DNA of 30,854 nt from a virus, in IMG/VR virus record IMGVR_UViG_3300021381_000043, positions 1 to 30,854 of that record; one strand, 5' to 3'. Each line of letters begins with the position of its first letter. Within the stretch, counting starts at the first letter, position 1. The notes under the pieces are model-generated. The model was not told where the DNA came from. It was given only the letters and a program-made list of their open reading frames with translations, and did no database searches. This document shows, piece by piece, positions 21,867 through 30,814 of the stretch. Position numbers and translations under genes: made by a program.

Positions 21867-22250
21867 ATGGATCATATGAAATTAAGTGACGAGCTTCGCA
21901 AGCAACTTCTTGAAAGTGCTTCCTGGGGCAAGGCTGGAATCACCCTTAACGAGGGTGTTGTTGAAGAGGCTGCTAAAGCTGTAGAAGATGACAAGGCTAT
22001 GGAGCCTAAGAAAAAGGCTAAGAAGGATAAGAAAGAGGAAGTTCATTGCGAGGAAGCTGTTCATGTTTGCCCTCTTTGCGTTTCTCAACTTGACGAAGCC
22101 ATTGATGAAGAATCACTCCTTGAGCATCTGAATGTGGTGGTTGGTCTTGTTGACCGTTTAAGCCAACTGCAAGAAGGTGATGAGGACATTGAAACCGTTA
22201 TCGACGAAACTATTCAAGAGCTTCTTTTTCCCGCATCTGAGGAAGAGTAG
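21867..22250 (+). CDS. Small acidic head-module protein with CxxC (gp67/68-like position)
   Basis: The protein has 127 residues. Near the N-terminus it has two matches to the T4 gp21 cleavage motif: L14-L15-E16 before S17, and L27-N28-E29 before G30. Residues about 50-58 form a Lys-rich patch (KKKAKKDKKEE), followed by HCEEAVHVCPLC with a CxxC pair preceded by His and Cys, which could bind a metal. The remaining C-terminal half is acidic and probably helical. In T4-like phages the small prohead-core genes 67 and 68 lie just before 21, which is where this gene lies, but I see no direct sequence match. A prohead core or internal role is inferred. Confidence 0.55.
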   Translation: MDHMKLSDELRKQLLESASWGKAGITLNEGVVEEAAKAVEDDKAMEPKKKAKKDKKEEVHCEEAVHVCPLCVSQLDEAIDEESLLEHLNVVVGLVDRLSQLQEGDEDIETVIDETIQELLFPASEEE

Positions 22251-22252
22251 TC

Positions 22253-22765
22253 ATGAATAGTATTGGCGACTTCGCTGAGAAGCTTATTAACGAGCAGGTA
22301 GGTAACATTAAGCAAGGTAAGCAATTACCTCCTAGCCAAGGGAGCAATTTAACTCCCAATGGTAAGGATATTTCTAATGTTGTAGTTCCTGACTCGTTTA
22401 TGAAGCAAGTTTTAGGCGAAAGTTTTCACCCTCAAGAGACTCCAGCGGTTGAAGCTATTCCTGAACTTGTTTGGGAGCAGCCAGAAGAATCTATTGCCCC
22501 TGAGACATTAACTGAGGAGACCGCTCAACAACTGGTTCCACTTTTAGAGGAAGTTAAATCTCTTCTGAAAGAAATGACTGCTGCCGCTACCATGTCTGGC
22601 AACATCGGAGTTAATTTAGGTGGAGCTTGTGAAGATGACAAATCTTATGAAGCAATTGAGAAGCGTTACGGATATAAAAAAGCCACATCTTCCAAGCTTT
22701 CTGGTGATTCTAGGAAAAGTGTCCTCAAGGATTCAATTAAAAATAGATTAAAAAAACGTAAATGA
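22253..22765 (+). CDS. Small head-module protein, prohead core candidate
   Basis: The protein has 170 residues. It starts two bases after the previous stop. The first 60 residues contain NEKLxN-type helix and the segment VVVPDSFMKQVLGES, in which L54-G55-E56 before S57 fits the gp21 cleavage rule. Residues 65-115 are acidic and Pro/Glu-rich with a helix PLLEEVKSLLKEM. The last 35 residues are strongly basic, ending in NRLKKRK. An acidic middle and a basic tail suit a scaffold or DNA-contact protein. It is not recognised by name. Its end overlaps the next start (AATGA). Confidence 0.5.
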   Translation: MNSIGDFAEKLINEQVGNIKQGKQLPPSQGSNLTPNGKDISNVVVPDSFMKQVLGESFHPQETPAVEAIPELVWEQPEESIAPETLTEETAQQLVPLLEEVKSLLKEMTAAATMSGNIGVNLGGACEDDKSYEAIEKRYGYKKATSSKLSGDSRKSVLKDSIKNRLKKRK

Positions 22766-23208
22766 AACTAACTGAGACTATTGATTATCTGAACGAAGCT
22801 AGAGGTTCAAAGGAGGGTAGGAAAGCCTACACCTCCAAATCCGCTACTTCTGATGATAAGAAGAAGTCTTTTAAGGGTCGAGTGCAAACTTACGATAGTA
22901 TTAAGTCTGCATTGTCAGACGGAAGCTACGGACAGATTTTTACTACTAAAGCTGCTGGTAGACTTTATGTTATTTCTAAAGGTAAGTGGGGCGCAAAGAG
23001 TGGAAAAGGTAAGATTGCAAAAGGGTTCACCCCTGGTAGTGCTACCCCTTCCGCTAAATGGTCGAGTGTTAAGAAACACGCTTCTCGAACCTTACTAAGA
23101 TACGGAAAGGGCTCCGACAAATTAGCCCAAAAATATGGAAGCAGAACCATCAAAGCTAAACGAGGAATCGGTGGCAAAGATGGGCGCTCTGACAAAGGGA
23201 AAAAATAA
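22762..23208 (+). CDS. Small basic protein with capsid-targeting-like N-terminus; internal head protein candidate
   Basis: The protein has 148 residues and overlaps the previous gene by four bases. Its N-terminus, MKLTETIDYLNEARG, has the form of the T4 internal-protein capsid targeting sequence (T4: MKTYQEFIAEA), with the predicted cut after L10-N11-E12. The rest is highly basic, rich in Lys, Arg, Gly and Ser, with a folded middle (YGQIFTTKAAGRLYVISKG) and a Lys/Gly-rich tail. In T4 such proteins are packed inside the prohead, trimmed by gp21 and injected with the DNA. The assignment is by motif and composition, not by homology of the body. Confidence 0.5.
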   Translation: MKLTETIDYLNEARGSKEGRKAYTSKSATSDDKKKSFKGRVQTYDSIKSALSDGSYGQIFTTKAAGRLYVISKGKWGAKSGKGKIAKGFTPGSATPSAKWSSVKKHASRTLLRYGKGSDKLAQKYGSRTIKAKRGIGGKDGRSDKGKK

Positions 23209-23210
23209 CA

Positions 23211-24842
23211 ATGCAATTACTACAAGATATTTTTATTATTGAACAGCTTCAAGTTTTATCGGAAGGTAAGGCTGATGGTCCTATGAAGATCAGAGGAGTT
23301 TTCGGTCGCTGCAATGAGAAGAACAACAATGGTAGAATTTATCCTACCGCAGTACTAGAGAGCCAACTTGCAAAAGTTAAGCCCCTTATTTCCGAGCGAA
23401 GATTATGCGGTGAGTTAGATCACCCTTCCAATGATACTGTTAAACTCTCCAACGCCTCCCACCTTATCACCAAATTAGATATGAAGGGTGATGAGCTTAT
23501 CGGAGAAGCAGAGATTCTTAGAACCCCCGCTGGACTTACTGCTAAAGCTTTAGTCGAAGGTGGAGTGAAGATTGGTATTTCCTCTAGAGGGATGGGCACT
23601 CTTTCTGAAGATCATAACGGGGATAAGATTGTTAATGAAGATTTTCGTCTTGTAACCTTTGACCTTGTTGCTGATCCATCAACCAGAGGAGCTTACCCTG
23701 GCTTGTCTGAGTCTGTTGAGTCTAAGTTTGTTAAGGATTCTCAATCAAAGCTTACGAAAGAAAGTAATTTTGTTACCATGCTTAACTCTAAGCTGCGTGA
23801 TGCTTATAAGCCCTTCCTTGAAGAAAATGCACAGAAGGGGTATCCTGGAGTAAAGGGTGGAACTGCTGCTGCCGAAGAAATGGAAGAAAAGAAAGGAAAG
23901 AAAAAACTTACTAAGAAGCAGCGTAAATTGGATGTTGAACCAGAAGGTGGTGATGGTGACATTGATTCTAAAGATTTAGCAAAACTTCGCGGAGAAGCTT
24001 TTGAACTAGTAAAAGCTGATGGTCACTGGCATAGAATTGCTGATGCTATTGCCGAAGGGTTTGGTAAGAAGGTAGTGACTGAAGCCTTTGATGATGAGGT
24101 AGATAAAGAATCCGCGACTAAACTAGCCCAAAGAGAACCTGCTAATGATTCTGGTAGTATGCTGAGTAACTTTAGAGCCAGACGGCAAGCTAAAAAAATG
24201 GAAATTGCCAAAGCAAAAGGCGCAGCTAAAGGGGCTAATATTTTAGCTAAGGGCGATGTTGAGGCTGGAAGAACCCGTCAAAAAGCTAAGGACGCTGCTG
24301 CTGCTGGTAAGCCTGTAACTAGGGGTGAAAAGGTTGCGGCTGGTGCAGGTAAGTTGGCTAAAGGGGCTGAAGATCTTGCTAGGGGCGCAGCCGCTCTTCC
24401 TGGAAAAACAATTGATAAGGCAGTTGATGTGACAAATGCTGCGACTAAAGCTAAACAAGCTAATAGGTTAGCTAGAGCAGAAAGAGATAAAGCTAGAGGA
24501 CGTTCAGCAAAAAGAAAAACACAAAGAGAAACTCCCGCCCCAACAAAGGACTATAAATCCAATGAGGAGCAACCCTTCGGCGCAGGGGCTAACAGACCCA
24601 AGGAGCGTGAAGATTCAGCAAGAGCATACAAGCAAATTGGTTTAGTACTAGCCGAGACTATTACAGGCACTGCTAGAAAAAGTAAAAGTGGTGACTCCAA
24701 GCAGAAACAGAACCCGCATGGTAACGCCGAGGGTAAACAGGGTGCGTTAGGTCGCACGCCTAGGCGCGAGGATGGTTCGCTAGATAAAAAAACAATTCTG
24801 CATAATATGAAAGCTAACATGAACAGCCAAAATGCTCGCTGA
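23211..24842 (+). CDS. 21: Prohead core protease, gp21-like, with ~370-residue C-terminal extension
   Basis: The protein has 543 residues (T4 gp21 has 212). Residues 25-165 are the protease: RGVFGRCNEKNNNGRIYP, then the catalytic-His motif GELDHP with His71, then GISSRG with candidate nucleophile Ser124 (Ser125 also present), then FDLVADPS, whose Asp is a likely third residue. L16-S17-E18 before G19 may be a self-cleavage site. Beyond residue 170 lies an extension not seen in T4 gp21: a Lys/Glu-rich linker (225-260), a helical part (255-290), a basic Ala/Lys/Arg-rich region (320-440), and a cassette SARAYKQIGLVLAE at 469-482. This cassette recurs in the 28482 gene. The protease matures the prohead by cutting scaffold and capsid proteins. 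The family call is strong; the role of the extension is unknown. Confidence 0.88.
   Translation: MQLLQDIFIIEQLQVLSEGKADGPMKIRGVFGRCNEKNNNGRIYPTAVLESQLAKVKPLISERRLCGELDHPSNDTVKLSNASHLITKLDMKGDELIGEAEILRTPAGLTAKALVEGGVKIGISSRGMGTLSEDHNGDKIVNEDFRLVTFDLVADPSTRGAYPGLSESVESKFVKDSQSKLTKESNFVTMLNSKLRDAYKPFLEENAQKGYPGVKGGTAAAEEMEEKKGKKKLTKKQRKLDVEPEGGDGDIDSKDLAKLRGEAFELVKADGHWHRIADAIAEGFGKKVVTEAFDDEVDKESATKLAQREPANDSGSMLSNFRARRQAKKMEIAKAKGAAKGANILAKGDVEAGRTRQKAKDAAAAGKPVTRGEKVAAGAGKLAKGAEDLARGAAALPGKTIDKAVDVTNAATKAKQANRLARAERDKARGRSAKRKTQRETPAPTKDYKSNEEQPFGAGANRPKEREDSARAYKQIGLVLAETITGTARKSKSGDSKQKQNPHGNAEGKQGALGRTPRREDGSLDKKTILHNMKANMNSQNAR
24379..24398 (+). repeat. Copy 1 of a 20-base repeat encoding RGAAAL
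   Basis: This segment in the gp21 extension matches 28621-28640 at 19 of 20 bases, in frame. In gp21 it precedes the RAYKQIG cassette; in the 28482 gene it follows it, so the two shared blocks occur in opposite order. Confidence 0.6.
24621..24656 (+). repeat. Copy 1 of a 36-base repeat encoding RAYKQIGLVLAE
   Basis: This part of the gp21 extension matches bases 28506-28541 at 33 of 36 positions, in the same reading frame; the three differences are silent third- or first-position changes. Such nucleotide-level identity suggests recent duplication or exchange between the two genes. Confidence 0.8.
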
Positions 24843-24885
24843 AAGAAAGTTAACACCTACATTTTATAAAAAAAAGCAAATTTAC

Positions 24886-24904
24886 TATCTACACATAGTA
24901 GATA
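24886..24904 (+). promoter_or_regulatory. Perfect 7-bp inverted repeat before the scaffold gene
   Basis: TATCTAC at 24886-24892 pairs with GTAGATA at 24898-24904 across a five-base loop. It sits in the 86-base AT-rich gap between gp21 and gp22. There is no T-tract after it, so it is a poor intrinsic terminator. It may be an RNA-processing hairpin or a protein-binding site. AGGAAA lies about eight bases before the gp22 start. Confidence 0.35.
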
Positions 24905-24928
24905 TATTTAACCTAGGAAATCTTACAC

Positions 24929-25573
24929 ATGAATAAAATAAAGAATATTGCAGAAATTCTTCCTGAAGGACTTGATGAATCTACTGTCGAAGCTATCTTC
25001 GGTCTGGTGGATTCAACCATTAATGATCAAGTCGAAGAGAAGATCGGTCTTCTTGAAGCTAAGGTAAATGCTTATCTTAGAACTAAAGTAGATCAACTGA
25101 AAGAACAAGCTCTTACTGAGCTAAGTGAAGAGAGTGAAGTGTTTCGCAACGCTAGACTCTTTGAATCAGTAAGAACCCTAATGGCCCTTGAGCTTAACAG
25201 CGACGATGAAGAAGGCGCACTTTCTGAAATGACGAACCAACATGGTGAGCTTCAGGAAGAGTTTGACGTATTAGCGGAGCAGGTAACTTTACTTGTTCGT
25301 GAAAACGAGAAACTTCAAAGTACTGTTAAGGTCCTTGATAGTAAAGTTTCGATCACCGAGAGTTCGGTTGATAAACTTGAAGGTCAAAAAGCACAACTTC
25401 TTGAAGAAGTTGAGAACCTGGAAGCTGCTAGTCAAGAGAAATTTAATTCCTCTGAAAGAGCAGTTGTTGTCTCCCAAGCGGATAGGGAGATTAACGAAGA
25501 AAAGGCTCATTTTTCTAATGAGTTTCTAAATGATGAGGTTATGAAATTCATGCCTTTCTCCCAACAATCTTAA
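24929..25573 (+). CDS. 22: Prohead scaffold core protein, gp22-like
   Basis: The protein has 214 residues (T4 gp22 has 269), is acidic and almost wholly helical. Residues about 85-160 have a clear heptad pattern (LQEEFDVLAEQVTLLV, then KLQSTVKVLDSKVS and QAQLLEEVENLE-type repeats) as expected of a coiled-coil scaffold. The N-terminus has L11-P12-E13 before G14 and L15-D16-E17 before S18, both fitting gp21 cleavage, and gp22 in T4 is broken into small peptides by gp21. It ends in a FLNDEVMKFMPF motif. The order gp21-gp22-gp23 is that of T4. AGGAAA upstream supports the ATG. Confidence 0.85.
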   Translation: MNKIKNIAEILPEGLDESTVEAIFGLVDSTINDQVEEKIGLLEAKVNAYLRTKVDQLKEQALTELSEESEVFRNARLFESVRTLMALELNSDDEEGALSEMTNQHGELQEEFDVLAEQVTLLVRENEKLQSTVKVLDSKVSITESSVDKLEGQKAQLLEEVENLEAASQEKFNSSERAVVVSQADREINEEKAHFSNEFLNDEVMKFMPFSQQS

Positions 25574-25578
25574 AGGAT

Positions 25579-25586
25579 TATAAATA
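25579..25586 (+). promoter_or_regulatory. Exact T4 late-promoter -10 element upstream of gp23
   Basis: TATAAATA is identical to the T4 late consensus and lies two bases before the gp23 ATG. Its distance to the ATG would make the message nearly leaderless, so it is a weak candidate for gp23 itself. AAAGGA at 25572-25577 could be the ribosome binding site. Confidence 0.35.
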
Positions 25587-25588
25587 CT

Positions 25589-27286
25589 ATGGAAATGATG
25601 CATCAAACTGATGAAACGCTTGTCCAGAAGTGGGAGCCCGTGCTTGAAGGTATTGATAATGATTATACCCGCCGAGTTACTGCTCAACTTCTTGAAAACC
25701 AAGCAAAATCTATTGTCGAGGACAAAGTTCGCAATATTGACGAGGCTATCTCTGCTGCTGCCACTACTACTGGTCAGCTAGGTACTTTTCAAAAATTCGC
25801 TTTCCCCCTCGTTCGTCGGGTTTATCCCCAACTCTTAGCCAACAGCCTTGTTGGTGTTCAACCCATGCAGGGTCCTGTCTCTCAGGTCTTCTACCTTGGT
25901 AACTCTCGCGCCCGTAATGGTGGTGGGGCTGTTGCTGACAACCAAACCGTCTTCAGTAAGTTCAACCTTACTTATGCTGGTAACGTTGCACAGCAAATCG
26001 GTTCCGCTTCTGGTACTGGTACTGAAAGATCGACTGGTCCTGGCCTTGGTGGCGCACAAGGTACTTTCGTTGACAAGGATGGCGTTCAGATTCCGACCGC
26101 AACTCCTGGTCTTGATGGCGATATCGCCACAGATGGCTTCGACGTTTCTAACGTCCTTGCTGTGTCTGGTACTTCAATGCAAGGTGCTGGCGCAGCTTCT
26201 GGTACGATGGGTGGTCAGATCGCTGCTTGGCCTAACAGCAATGCAGTTATGGGCTACAACCTTTCTGGTGGTGAGCGTCTGACTGGAACGGGCATCCCTG
26301 AGATGACCTTCCACATCGAGCAAGAGGCTGTTGTGGCTCAAACTCGTAAGATGAGAGCCCTTTGGACTCTTGAGGCTTCTCAAGATCTTAAGGCATATCA
26401 CAACCTTGACCTTGAGCGCGAGCTTACTGACCTTCTTTCGAAGGAACTTCAACTTGAGATCGACCGTGAACTCATCGAAGATCTTCGCCAGATTGCTTAT
26501 GGTCTTAGGGATCAAGAAATGGGTGGTGGAAACCAGAATCTCATGGATTCTAACTACATTAACCTTGGTACTAACGTCAATGGTGGTGGATTCCCTGGTC
26601 TTGATAGTGCTGCTGATACGACTACTTTCGTCCCCGCTCAGTTTACCTACGACTTCAATGGTGATGGCGCAGGTGAAACACAGTTTGGTTCGGCTAAGAC
26701 TAACTCAAATGTTTTTGTTGTAGACTTCAGCCAATCCTCCCTCGACATGTATCCCCGCCACGTTGGCGAGGTGTACGCTAACCTTCTTGCAGTGATTAAC
26801 CTCGCTTCGCAAGATATTTATCGTACCACGATGCGTGGTCCTGGTAACTGGCTTCTCACCTCTCCTCTCGTAGCTTCCATGCTTGAGAGTGCTTCCAAGC
26901 TTGAGGGTGGTATTCAGGCTGCTGATGGTCCGACTAACATTGGTCGTAACAGCATTGAGTACAAAGGTAAGTTTATGGGTCGCTATGACCTGTACGTTGA
27001 CCCGATGTACCCGACTGACGAGATCCTGGTTGGTTATAAGGGCGCAAACGCGATGGATTCGGGATACATTTATGCTCCCTACATCCCTCTCCAGCAGTTG
27101 CCTACTATTACGGATCCCGAGTCTTTCCAACCCAGGAAAGGCATCCTGACCCGTTACGGTAAGGTCCAGATTGAGCCAATGAACCGATTCTACAGAGTCA
27201 TTCGTATTATTGGCCCGACCTCGAACTACTTGTTCAGCCCGTTCGCCCGTAACAACTCGGTCCTCGGTACTGCAACTACTGTCTAA
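25589..27286 (+). CDS. 23: Major capsid protein, gp23-like
   Basis: The protein has 565 residues (T4 gp23 has 521). The N-terminus follows T4 gp23: a KWEPVLEG segment (T4 KWKPLLEG), then TAQLLENQAK (T4 AKIFENQEK), and VGVQPM at about 88-93 (T4 CGVQPM). The predicted gp21 cut is I50-D51-E52 before A53, close to the T4 site at residue 65. The C-terminus has YAPYIPLQQLP, then DPESFQPRKGILTRYGK. Residues 355-362 read DFNGDGAG, an acidic Gly loop like a calcium-binding site. Codon use is visibly richer in C-ending, higher-GC codons than neighbours, as in a highly expressed gene. A terminator follows directly. The call is very strong. Confidence 0.95.
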   Translation: MEMMHQTDETLVQKWEPVLEGIDNDYTRRVTAQLLENQAKSIVEDKVRNIDEAISAAATTTGQLGTFQKFAFPLVRRVYPQLLANSLVGVQPMQGPVSQVFYLGNSRARNGGGAVADNQTVFSKFNLTYAGNVAQQIGSASGTGTERSTGPGLGGAQGTFVDKDGVQIPTATPGLDGDIATDGFDVSNVLAVSGTSMQGAGAASGTMGGQIAAWPNSNAVMGYNLSGGERLTGTGIPEMTFHIEQEAVVAQTRKMRALWTLEASQDLKAYHNLDLERELTDLLSKELQLEIDRELIEDLRQIAYGLRDQEMGGGNQNLMDSNYINLGTNVNGGGFPGLDSAADTTTFVPAQFTYDFNGDGAGETQFGSAKTNSNVFVVDFSQSSLDMYPRHVGEVYANLLAVINLASQDIYRTTMRGPGNWLLTSPLVASMLESASKLEGGIQAADGPTNIGRNSIEYKGKFMGRYDLYVDPMYPTDEILVGYKGANAMDSGYIYAPYIPLQQLPTITDPESFQPRKGILTRYGKVQIEPMNRFYRVIRIIGPTSNYLFSPFARNNSVLGTATTV

Positions 27287-27310
27287 TTAAATAACTAAAT
27301 AGACTTTTAT

Positions 27311-27348
27311 AAGGGCCAGAGGTTTTTTTGTCCTCTGGCCCTTTTTCT
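27311..27348 (+). terminator. Strong intrinsic terminator after the major capsid gene
   Basis: AAGGGCCAGAGG at 27311-27322 pairs perfectly with CCTCTGGCCCTT at 27332-27343 around a nine-base, T-rich loop. A TTTCTCTTT tract follows. The GC-rich stem stands out in an AT-rich genome. The minus-strand exit is not T-rich, so it appears to act only on + strand transcription. It likely isolates the very high capsid transcription from downstream genes. Confidence 0.9.
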
Positions 27349-27372
27349 CTTTACTATATACTCTAGAACATT

Positions 27373-27603
27373 ATGTACAAATACCGAAGCAAATGCAGGT
27401 GGAATATGCTTCTTCACATAGATGGTGAAGTAGTAGAGATTAGACCTTCAGAATTATTTGAATCAAAGACGTTAGTTACTTCTAGAAATCTAGAGTTAGT
27501 TACTGAACCGACAAAGAAGAAGAAGAAGAAGAAAGCTACAAAAAAAGTAGCCGCCCCCAAAACGTTTATAGAGGACTCCTATGGCAACAGCAGCAGCACC
27601 TAA
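27373..27603 (+). CDS. Small Lys-rich hypothetical protein
   Basis: The protein has 76 residues. A compact N-terminal part (residues 1-45, with a CRWNMLLHIDGEVVEIRP strand pair) is followed by a run of seven Lys and a KKVAAPKTF tail. The Lys run comes from a GAA/AAG-type repeat near 27517-27533. It overlaps the following neck gene by 23 bases in another frame. It lies just after the capsid terminator. The family is not recognised; a head-associated minor protein is possible. The ATG at 27373 has no strong ribosome binding site. Confidence 0.5.
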   Translation: MYKYRSKCRWNMLLHIDGEVVEIRPSELFESKTLVTSRNLELVTEPTKKKKKKKATKKVAAPKTFIEDSYGNSSST

Positions 27604-28465
27604 AATTGATCCTAGGTTAGTAGGATACGGAGATACCTTTGGCAACTACGGTGGCAGGAATCTTGGAGATACCGATATCTACTCCACTGCTATTGATTCC
27701 TCTAAGCTTAACAAGAGTCTTTTAGGTGAAGGGGTTGAGCTAGATCCCTTCGAACAGACAGTTCATGATTTTGTCCTCTCTAGATTAGGTCATCCAGTAG
27801 TCCGAGTAGAGCTTACCCCTTTCCAGATTAAGACTGCTATTGATGAAGCGGTAACTAACTTAGATTACCATGCACCTTTCTGGACCATGCAATGTGCAAC
27901 CTTTGAATGTTCAGCAGGGGTAAACGCTTATATGCTCCCTATGCATATAGCCTACAACCTCAACTACGTTGTATATAAGAAGTCCCTACTAACTATTCCA
28001 GGAGGAGCAGGAAGCTTGGAGTCTGATTTCTTTATCAAATACTTCCAAGACAACTTCCTCTTTAGTAACTTCCAAGTATCTGATTTTTATCTAATGCAAC
28101 AGCACTTAGAGATGGTTAGAAAGATTCTAGGCCAAGAAGGATCTTGGGACTTACTCAACGGAAACATATTACAACTGTATCCTACGCCTGTTAACAATAG
28201 CCAGATAGTTATTTTGATTTACAGAGCATTAGATACTTACACTATGCACCCCTACTATAAGAACTGGATTCAACGATTTGCTTTAGCAGTATGTAAAGGA
28301 ATCCTTGGTGAGATCAGGGGTAAATACAAATCACTTCCATCTCCTGGTGGAGGTGCAAGCTTAAACGGTTCTGAGTTATTGCAACAAAGTACTCAAGAAA
28401 AAGAAAAGCTAAAAGAAGAGCTTCTCTCTGAGATAGAAGAACCTCCTGCGTTCTCTATGTTTTAG
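27581..28465 (+). CDS. 13: Neck / head-completion protein, gp13-like
   Basis: The protein has 294 residues (T4 gp13 has 309). Residues 67-91 read LSRLGHPVVRVELTPFQIKT then AIDEA, the family-typical opening in which a LG-hP-hhxVELT strand leads into a helix. The middle is rich in aromatic residues with AYNLNYVVYKK and NFLFSNFQVSDFY. Near the end there is a helical stretch WIQRFALAVCKGILGEIRGK and a final acidic helix. GAGGA lies five bases before the ATG, which supports the start inside the previous gene. gp13 with gp14 forms the neck that closes the filled head and joins the tail. Moderate to good confidence. Confidence 0.7.
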   Translation: MATAAAPKIDPRLVGYGDTFGNYGGRNLGDTDIYSTAIDSSKLNKSLLGEGVELDPFEQTVHDFVLSRLGHPVVRVELTPFQIKTAIDEAVTNLDYHAPFWTMQCATFECSAGVNAYMLPMHIAYNLNYVVYKKSLLTIPGGAGSLESDFFIKYFQDNFLFSNFQVSDFYLMQQHLEMVRKILGQEGSWDLLNGNILQLYPTPVNNSQIVILIYRALDTYTMHPYYKNWIQRFALAVCKGILGEIRGKYKSLPSPGGGASLNGSELLQQSTQEKEKLKEELLSEIEEPPAFSMF

Positions 28466-28466
28466 G

Positions 28467-28474
28467 AATAAATA
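28467..28474 (+). promoter_or_regulatory. AATAAATA late-promoter-like element before the internal head protein
   Basis: This AATAAATA lies in the 16-base gap between two genes, seven bases before the ATG at 28482. It is similar to the AATAAATA at 1037-1044 before the spike gene. It may be a T4-type late element or simple AT-rich chance. Confidence 0.25.
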
Positions 28475-28481
28475 AACAAAT

Positions 28482-29228
28482 ATGAAAACTTTCGAGAATT
28501 CCAGCAGAGCTTACAAGCAAATTGGTTTAGTATTAGCCGAAGCTATGGGTCATAGAGTTGATGAAATTGCTCCTTTGGCTGCTTTAGGGGCGGGAGCCCG
28601 AGTGGTTGCTGGTGTTGCCTCTAGGGGCGCAGCGGCTCTTGCTAGGGGAGCTAAGGGTCTTGGTCAAGGTGTAAAGTCTGGTGCTAAGGTTGCTGGTCAG
28701 AAGATTAAGCAAAGGATCAAGAAAAAAGCTACGGATAAAGCTTTAGGCTATGCTCAAGAAAAGTTGGGAGATAAGTTTCAAGCTGGATATAAAAAAATTA
28801 AAGGTAAATTCACGGGGGCTGGGGACCAAGGTACTATCCCCGATGATAAGGAGGCTGAGGAAGAGCTTAAGGTATCCGATTTGGATAACGTCCAAAATGA
28901 AGGAACAATTATGAATAACGCATACTCTGTATACTCCCGCCTAGCGCATATCTTTTTAGAAGGAGGCAATCCTTTCACTGATACGCAAAGGGCTGCGGGA
29001 ACTAAAGCGCGGGGAGACGCGGCAAAACGAACTCCCACTGGCGCAGAACACGCCCAAACAGCGGAGAAGGAGGCTAACAGAGCAGCTTCTAGAGCACCTA
29101 GAGATGTAAAACCTACTGTAACCGCAAAGAACAGACTTGCAAGAAAAAGAACAGAAAGGGCTAGTATGAAAAGAGGAGCGTTGAGAGATTTAGCGGTAAA
29201 ATCACAAATTAAACCTAAAGATGGCTAA
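28482..29228 (+). CDS. Basic internal head protein candidate with capsid-targeting-like N-terminus
   Basis: The protein has 248 residues. Its N-terminus, MKTFENSSRAYKQIGLVLAE before A21, has the form of a T4 capsid targeting sequence (T4: MKTYQEFIAEA), with a predicted gp21 cut at L18-A19-E20. The rest is Ala/Gly/Lys/Arg-rich: a hydrophobic Ala/Gly block (30-62), a Lys-rich part (65-110), an acidic linker (120-140), a second targeting-like segment AYSVYSRLAHIFLEGGNPF at 147-165, and a basic tail. The first block shares two DNA-level repeats with the gp21 extension. A well-placed internal start at 28911 is described separately. It lies between gp13- and gp14-like genes, an odd site for an internal protein. 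No homologue is recalled. Confidence 0.55.
   Translation: MKTFENSSRAYKQIGLVLAEAMGHRVDEIAPLAALGAGARVVAGVASRGAAALARGAKGLGQGVKSGAKVAGQKIKQRIKKKATDKALGYAQEKLGDKFQAGYKKIKGKFTGAGDQGTIPDDKEAEEELKVSDLDNVQNEGTIMNNAYSVYSRLAHIFLEGGNPFTDTQRAAGTKARGDAAKRTPTGAEHAQTAEKEANRAASRAPRDVKPTVTAKNRLARKRTERASMKRGALRDLAVKSQIKPKDG
28506..28541 (+). repeat. Copy 2 of the 36-base repeat encoding RAYKQIGLVLAE
   Basis: This copy lies at residues 9-20 of the protein encoded at 28482 and matches 24621-24656 at 33 of 36 bases with all differences silent. Confidence 0.8.
28621..28640 (+). repeat. Copy 2 of the 20-base repeat encoding RGAAAL
   Basis: This copy matches 24379-24398 at 19 of 20 bases, in frame. It lies after the RAYKQIG cassette here, but before it in gp21. 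Confidence 0.6.
28911..29228 (+). CDS. Possible internally initiated protein inside the 28482 gene
   Basis: An in-frame ATG at 28911 (codon 144) is preceded by AAGGA at 28900-28904 with a six-base spacer, a better ribosome binding site than many real starts here. It would give a 105-residue basic protein beginning MNNAYSVYSRLAHIFLEGG, itself similar to a targeting sequence ending in an FLE|G cut, and followed by a Lys/Arg/Ala-rich body. It could also be only an internal motif of a single long protein. Confidence 0.4.
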   Translation: MNNAYSVYSRLAHIFLEGGNPFTDTQRAAGTKARGDAAKRTPTGAEHAQTAEKEANRAASRAPRDVKPTVTAKNRLARKRTERASMKRGALRDLAVKSQIKPKDG

Positions 29229-30524: not shown

Positions 30525-30814
30525 TGCCAGCCGTAACTAGAATTGGTGATAAAGACGTAATGCATTGAAGCGTTCCTACGAGAGCAGTTGGTTCTCCAGA
30601 TGTGCTTTGTAATGGAATAGGAATCTCTAGGCAGGGAGATGTTAACGATGTTCATTTACTTCCTGGGGTTCCATGCCCTTCCCATTCAGCGCCAATTGCT
30701 ATTGGCAGTAGCACTGTTTTTATTAATGGAAGGGGTTGTGGTAGGGTTGGAGACGCTATTGCGGGGTGTACTAGTGTGGCTACTGGATCCCCTAACGTAT
30801 TTGCTGGTGGTTGA
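30524..30814 (+). CDS. PAAR-repeat spike tip protein with an in-frame TGA at codon 15
   Basis: Starting at the ATG that overlaps the previous stop, the frame gives MPAVTRIGDKDVMH, then TGA at 30566-30568, then continues as a full PAAR protein to the TGA at 30812-30814, 96 codons plus stop. This matches the size of T4 gp5.4 (97 residues). PAAR features are intact: GSPDVLCNG, RQGDVNDVH, CPSH, GSSTVFING, GRVGD, GSPNVF. Metal ligand candidates are H14, H44, C51 and H54. From memory of relatives the TGA replaces Cys in a HCS-like site. A GTG at 30602 is the only early in-frame restart, but it would omit the N-terminal repeat. PAAR proteins sharpen the central spike. Causes could be a sequencing error, a real nonsense mutation, or recoding. 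Confidence 0.75.
30580..30596 (+). promoter_or_regulatory. Weak SECIS-like hairpin after the PAAR TGA
   Basis: GAGAG at 30580-30584 can pair with TTCTC at 30592-30596 (one G-T wobble) around a seven-base loop CAGTTGG. The spacer from the TGA to the helix is 11 bases, the bacterial selenocysteine spacing. The stem is short and such hairpins arise easily by chance. Confidence 0.15.

Follow-up and report, generated by a model that had tools for sequence, protein, structure and literature searches.

A putative capsid-targeting and protease-processing tag on head proteins, and on the prohead protease itself, in an uncultured T4-like phage lineage

The prohead protease of phage T4, gp21, cuts after [LI]xE, and among its substrates the core proteins gp67, gp68 and gp22 are cut to pieces (PMC9026906). 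For the T4 internal protein IPIII, the first 10 residues suffice for targeting to the head; residues 4 and 7 serve mainly targeting and residues 8 and 10 processing, while a D at position 10 of the capsid targeting sequence (CTS) keeps targeting and abolishes processing (PMC9026906). T4 gp21 is itself expected to undergo C-terminal processing, for a reason that is unknown (PMC9026906), and protein targeting has also been treated for phage P1 (PMC9024508). Here we describe gp21-type sites, and a repeated module ending in such a site, in the head genes of an uncultured virus, IMG/VR record IMGVR_UViG_3300021381_000043. The whole linear record of 30,854 bp, probably a fragment of a larger genome, was analysed and is called the window. 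We propose, with a probability of roughly 0.7, that the module is a capsid-targeting and gp21-processing tag, carried both by hypervariable basic head proteins and by the tail of the protease.

The window contains a T4-type head block in the order 21867, 22253, 22762, gp21, a coiled-coil protein in the gp22 position, gp23, 27373, a gp13-type neck protein (matching PHROG 211), 28482, 29221 and gp15, where numbers are the first positions of genes. None of the 50,697 phage records searched was a near match to the window, and the closest cultured phages reach only about 28-45% identity in gp21 and gp23. Relatives were collected by way of gp21 (29) and 22762 (51); the two sets overlap and include 13 contigs of 56-106 kb. 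Open reading frame (ORF) starts are mechanical calls.

A first-pass annotation had noted [L/I]-x-E before A, G or S early in seven of these genes (21867, 22253, 22762, gp21, gp22, gp23 and 28482). Every quoted site exists in the translated ORFs and lies within the first 60 amino acids (aa), although the site of 22253 is not very early in a protein of its length. Thus, all seven genes carry [LI]xE[AGS] in this range, compared with a mean of 1.1 after residue shuffling, and none of 5000 shuffles reached seven. Because these genes had been picked for having sites, the fair contrast is between all head and neck genes, of which 10 of 11 have such a site (3 of 4 outside the listed set), and tail genes, of which 1 of 11 does. 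Over their full complement of sites the tail proteins showed no excess either (11, compared with 12.5 in their own shuffles).

Conservation was scored as the fraction of aligned relatives with an intact [LIMFV]xE, and the main sites were intact in 86-100% of about 35-40 relatives. This was the case for LLE14 of 21867 (36/36), LNE10 of 22762 (35/35), LSE16 of gp21 (39/40), IDE50 of gp23 (35/36 as [LIM]xE, notwithstanding an adjoining 3-residue indel) and LGE54 of 22253 (32/37, with P3 hydrophobic in all). LPE11 of gp22 was intact in 32/36, a count that is uninformative since the surrounding stretch is uniformly conserved. Look-alike sites used as controls were poorly kept: gp13 LGE48 in 5/33, gp14 LDE18 in 8/28, 27373 LFE28 in 23/35 and a tail IAE57 in 2/11. 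The second site quoted for 21867, LNE27, falls where 26 of 36 relatives have a gap, and as a shared site it is not demonstrably conserved. These counts are not independent events, as the relatives share descent, and the safeguard is that the control sites fail in the same alignments. Judged in this way, conservation separates the genuine sites from chance ones, among which we place several extra matches in neck proteins. The site is common to head and not to tail proteins and is kept across the lineage, so that one protease acting on one processed head set is well supported by the sequences.

Beyond single sites, a longer module with the consensus Y-x-x-I-G-x-x-L-A-E↓A (arrow, predicted cut; module peptide sequence, AYKQIGLVLAEAMG) occurs in the C-terminal extension of gp21, in 28482, in proteins of the same slot between gp13 and gp14 in relatives, and in basic ORFs at other places in the relatives' genomes. 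Its core consists of Y/W at P10, I/L/M at P7, G/A at P6, L/I/M at P3, A at P2 (62/67) and E at P1 (65/67), mostly followed by A at P1', a uniformity that is partly built in by the selection pattern. A profile hidden Markov model (HMM) built from 27 gp21 copies gave 88 matches at a threshold of at least 5 bits in the 2616 ORFs of the loci, and none in residue shuffles. The matches fell in gp21 extensions, in gp13-gp14 slot proteins and in small ORFs of the head cluster, with the exception of one minus-strand ORF at 5.7 bits. With a relaxed expression applied to the first 45 residues of genes on the long contigs, 30 genes were found compared with 5.2 in shuffles (maximum 9), a count that takes in gp22 and a ribonucleotide-reductase-like gene. 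The genes found include minus-strand basic ORFs far from the head cluster, such as G007 61835-63016 (ESIWNIYRSMAYVIAE and kin). As a separate observation, this ORF and G006 55195-56187 (also minus strand) are small basic ORFs that begin with ESIW(N/D)TY..A/G...(I/L)xE and, by eye, adjoin DNA polymerase-like genes, resembling an island of internal proteins.

The most unusual element of the lineage, which the first-pass annotation had missed, appears to be the tagged, basic and hypervariable tail of the protease. The window gp21 is assigned to the Peptidase S77 family by its profile match and by its catalytic-type motifs (GEL-H-P and SSRG), whose residues H71, S124, S125, R126 and G127 are invariant in 22 sequences. 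It is 543 aa long (lineage median 472, 37 gp21) and so lies outside the typical S77 size of about 210-220 aa, which is not strictly defining. Eight sampled gp21 proteins of cultured phages span 207-221 aa (T4, 212; cyanophages and a pelagiphage, 214-218; a Vibrio phage, 213; Campylobacter gp21 also falls in this range). The added length is basic in every relative, with a median net charge of +29 compared with -3 for the protease domain (37 gp21). Pairwise identity in the extension is 0.32, compared with 0.29 when shuffled and 0.78 in the protease domain, and apart from the repeated module the extensions cannot be aligned among relatives. Two modules are present in the window extension. The first was found in 26 of 38 gp21, with E in register in 15 of the 26; a strict regular expression for it was superseded by a looser one.

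Two further features of gp21 were noted. Just past the protease domain, residues 241-260 (window 23931-23990) form an EF-hand/dockerin-like calcium loop, DVEPEGGDGDIDSKDLAKLR. Such loops recur in the gp21 of many relatives, one of which (L018) has a sub-threshold match to Pfam Dockerin_1 (E 0.042), and calcium control of the protease is possible. In addition, tiny ORFs that begin with a module (MNNTYKNIGLIIAEALNL) lie directly after gp21 in L010 (9536), L023 (9299), L025 (2020) and L029 (10932 and 11192), as if the final gp21 segment had become a separate gene.

Long C-terminal extensions of gp21-family proteases have a precedent in Tenacibaculum phage PTm5, in which gp21 and gp22 are fused (564 aa; L131 1531-3225). 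However, the PTm5 extension is acidic and scaffold-like (net -28 for the whole protein) and no separate gp22 precedes the capsid gene, whereas the window lineage has a basic tail and a gp22 of its own. In herpesviruses, the assemblin-scaffold precursor likewise has a maturation protease whose C-terminus is fused to a part that the protease removes. That part is the scaffold, whereas the window lineage encodes its scaffold apart from the protease, whose tail is hypervariable and basic. In the giant phages phiKZ and SPN3US, a single gp21-related protease cuts many head proteins after x-x-E and cleaves its own C-terminus, but the propeptides are of 100 aa or more, the motif is another one, and the available portion of that report mentions no repeated Y-x-x-I-G module (PMC5694885).

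In the gp13-gp14 slot, 28482 carries the module at its N-terminus, and nearly all relatives examined have a differing basic, module-bearing protein in this place, in most of which the tag is internal, unlike that of 28482. A single-protein scan found no relatives of 28482, cultured phages included, as the protein is too variable and shares the module alone; no Pfam or PHROG match rose above noise. The module of 28482 (28506-28541) and that in the gp21 tail (24621-24656) are identical at 33 of 36 nucleotides. Pairs of a gp21 module and another module with at least 80% DNA identity were found in this window only (92 intra-genome pairs; median 0.56 compared with 0.51 between genomes), which demonstrates recent exchange or duplication in this one case but no general rule. 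A possible second module in 28482 is degenerate; the L001 ortholog has STVYSKLGHLFLE at this place. Two short domains, MPLTSKGKKIM..VFYASKNKGTI and MPKGTKVSRCVEK..NPYAVCQASTKQSYATGKKL, recur at the start of slot proteins, which often have one or the other (L019 5262, L017 5849, L022 12991, L001 7785 and L006 5497), and neither domain matched Pfam above the cut-off.

The best candidate for an internal protein (cargo) in the window is 22762. The first-pass annotation had seen targeting-like N-termini in the MKL and MKT starts of two proteins. These starts are real and a helix is predicted at the N-terminus of the basic 22762, but its relatives begin with MK, MN, MR or IR; the helix and the E are conserved and the MK is not. 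E12 is invariant (31-36 sequences), whereas the preceding residues and the following linker differ among relatives in both sequence and length, as would be expected for a prepeptide. An AlphaFold model (31 sequences) has a helix at residues 3-11, low confidence over 1-40 and a folded alpha/beta domain at about 45-135. The model had no significant fold match in PDB or BFVD, the sequence no Pfam or PHROG match above noise, and no relative was found in cultured phages at E<=0.1. Like the T4 internal proteins, 22762 and 28482 are basic and have an N-terminal prepeptide with a gp21-type end (12 and 20 aa, respectively).

The remaining head genes resemble the T4 core, gp67, gp68, gp21 and gp22, in their order: an acidic protein, a protein with a basic end, the protease, an acidic coiled-coil scaffold and the capsid protein. 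They differ from it in that 21867 and 22253 have no sequence match, 22762 is an extra basic gene and gp21 is about 2.5 times longer. For 21867 and 22253 no Pfam or PHROG family, gp67 and gp68 included, scored above noise; weak coiled-coil matches were disregarded. The N-terminus of gp22, IKNIAEILPE↓GL, is module-like and in register, and its L063 ortholog has a weak module-HMM match (3.4 bits). Separately, 21867 (21867-22250) has an HVCPLC (CxxC) patch conserved in nearly all relatives, possibly a metal site. The Prochlorococcus single-cell assembly AG-409-P03 (L139 4172-10202, QCKN01000003.1) contains a distant copy of the head cluster. This copy includes genes resembling 21867, 22253 and 22762 as well as a gp21 of 425 aa whose tail is basic, and it gives a lead as to which hosts the wider group may infect. 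At the far end of the window (30602-30814), a short ORF resembles, by eye, a PAAR-type spike-tip protein.

Table 1. Positions of the main features in the window (arrow, predicted cut)
Feature	Position	Strand	Remarks
Tail/baseplate block	91-21773		
21867, acidic core-type protein, 127 aa	21867..22250	+	net charge -20; T4 gp67-like position and charge
21867 site LLE↓S, aa 14-16	21906-21914	+	conserved
21867 second site LNE↓G, aa 27-29		+	gapped region
22253, core-type protein, 170 aa, basic C-terminus	22253..22765	+	site LGE↓S, aa 54-56, at 22412-22420
22762, strongly basic protein, 148 aa	22762..23208	+	net +26
22762 site LNE↓A, aa 10-12, closing predicted N-terminal helix	22789-22797	+	prepeptide 12 aa
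gp21 prohead protease domain (Peptidase S77)	23211..23825	+	Pfam PF03420 5e-23; PHROG 207 6e-50
gp21 N-terminal site LSE↓G, aa 16-18	23256-23264	+	
gp21 C-terminal extension (338 aa), basic and hypervariable	23826..24839	+	after residue 205; net +26
First gp21-extension module WHRIADAIAE↓G	24027..24056	+	module HMM 34.7 bits
Second gp21-extension module RAYKQIGLVLAE↓T	24621..24656	+	module HMM 9.3 bits
gp22-position acidic coiled-coil scaffold	24929..25573	+	net -26; site LPE↓G, aa 11-13
gp23 major capsid protein	25589..27286	+	Pfam Gp23 (PF07068) 2e-80
gp23 prepeptide site IDE↓A, aa 50-52	25736-25744	+	at the prepeptide boundary
28482, basic hypervariable protein, 248 aa, gp13-gp14 slot	28482..29228	+	net +21; cargo candidate
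28482 N-terminal module RAYKQIGLVLAE↓A (LAE↓A, aa 18-20)	28506..28541	+	module HMM 25.5 bits
28482 possible second, degenerate module NAYSVYSRLAHIFLE↓G	28917..28961	+	by eye; under HMM threshold

From these data we infer the following course of events. Head proteins of this lineage would bear [LIM]xE sites for the phage's own gp21, and the module (an aromatic residue followed by I-G and next by L-A-E↓A, with the spacing of an amphipathic helix) would act as the capsid-targeting and processing tag. The tag helix would dock each protein onto the gp22-type core during prohead formation; once the shell closes, gp21 would cut after the E and free the packaged basic mature pieces into the head. The protease, through the tag or tags of its long basic tail, would be held to the core, and its self-cleavage would leave basic peptides with the DNA. 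Several lines of evidence lead to this proposal: sites enriched in head and not in tail genes, conservation where control sites fail, the invariant E12 of 22762, the 88 HMM matches against none, the module core consensus, the published T4 facts (PMC9026906), the T4 gp21 end AYMALAEAMKKAL, which resembles the module end, and an otherwise unalignable basic tail that keeps the module. The likeness to T4 IPI-IPIII and Alt lies in a short, helix-like N-terminal prepeptide ending in [LI]xE↓A, basic variable mature parts and, as predicted here, processing by a gp21-family protease. The tag of this lineage differs in having another sequence and in being often internal and repeated, in candidate cargo that lies within the head cluster (gp13-gp14 slot) and in its presence in the protease tail as well.

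Several observations weigh against this proposal. Of the first gp21 modules, 11/26 keep DG.WH.IA without an E in register, and the Y-type module is absent from 13/38 gp21, mostly of a sister clade or shortened or truncated copies. It follows that cleavage is not universal there, and binding or targeting may be primary and cutting secondary. The T4 start MKTYQEFIAE, found in two genes of the T4 record, has no homology to the module, only a likeness of pattern by eye (hydrophobic P7, P4 and P3, and AE↓A), and an AlphaFold model of the whole gp21 was too poor for interpretation (predicted local distance difference test score, 50.6). The module could then be a core-docking helix only, with the E in a binding surface and uncut, while the gp21 extension would keep the protease in the core as a multivalent tether. 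The E-less first modules, the D-for-E replacement in two relatives (L018, LAD; L003, MAD) and the T4 CTS with D at position 10, which targets and is unprocessed (PMC9026906), would all fit such a helix. We nevertheless consider it unlikely, given that no part of the Y-type module is more uniform than its LAE↓A end and that the gp23 prepeptide site, a cut site in T4, obeys the same rule.

Somewhat less remote, though still doubtful, is that the basic proteins with the tag serve as extra scaffold or core components and are destroyed at maturation rather than delivered as cargo. Indeed, 21867, 22253 and gp22 occupy the positions of T4 gp67, gp68 and gp22, which are cut up in T4, but 22762 has a conserved and apparently folded basic domain after its tag, and the hypervariability of the 28482 slot fits internal proteins rather than an essential core. 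Chance is very improbable as a global explanation, even though [LI]xE is short and frequent in acidic head proteins. It does account for the unconserved LNE27 of 21867, gp13 LGE48, gp14 LDE18 and 27373 LFE28, and one match to the relaxed expression is the N-terminus of an apparent ribonucleotide reductase. For the other sites, the enrichment over shuffles and tail genes, the near-invariant E and L and the HMM result refute it, and as a general account it was rejected.

A bolder extension of the tag proposal, which we put forward tentatively as conceivable but short of an even chance, is that the protease is a polyprotein. Its basic tail would be packaged cargo, cut at the embedded modules into DNA-binding or host-directed peptides, and the module would be a movable cassette exchanged among head genes, the protease tail included, as the 33 of 36 shared nucleotides might reflect. 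A literature search for protease polyproteins in tailed phages found nothing comparable.

The observation made in the first-pass annotation thus held, and its interpretation, a large cargo or scaffold set processed by one protease, is supported in part. The shared, conserved head sites agree with it, as do further tag-bearing basic ORFs in relatives away from the head cluster. However, most of the window set are the usual T4 substrates (core proteins, gp22, gp23 and gp21), and so the claim of a large cargo set comes down to 22762 and 28482, plus the relatives. Taken together, our findings suggest that one uncultured phage group employs capsid targeting with release by the protease, a scheme familiar from the internal proteins of T4, in the form of a modular tag that has spread onto the protease. 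The module HMM provides a sequence handle for head cargo proteins in phages that have not been grown, and the lineage bears on the reason for C-terminal self-cleavage by gp21, which the T4 review names as a gap (PMC9026906).

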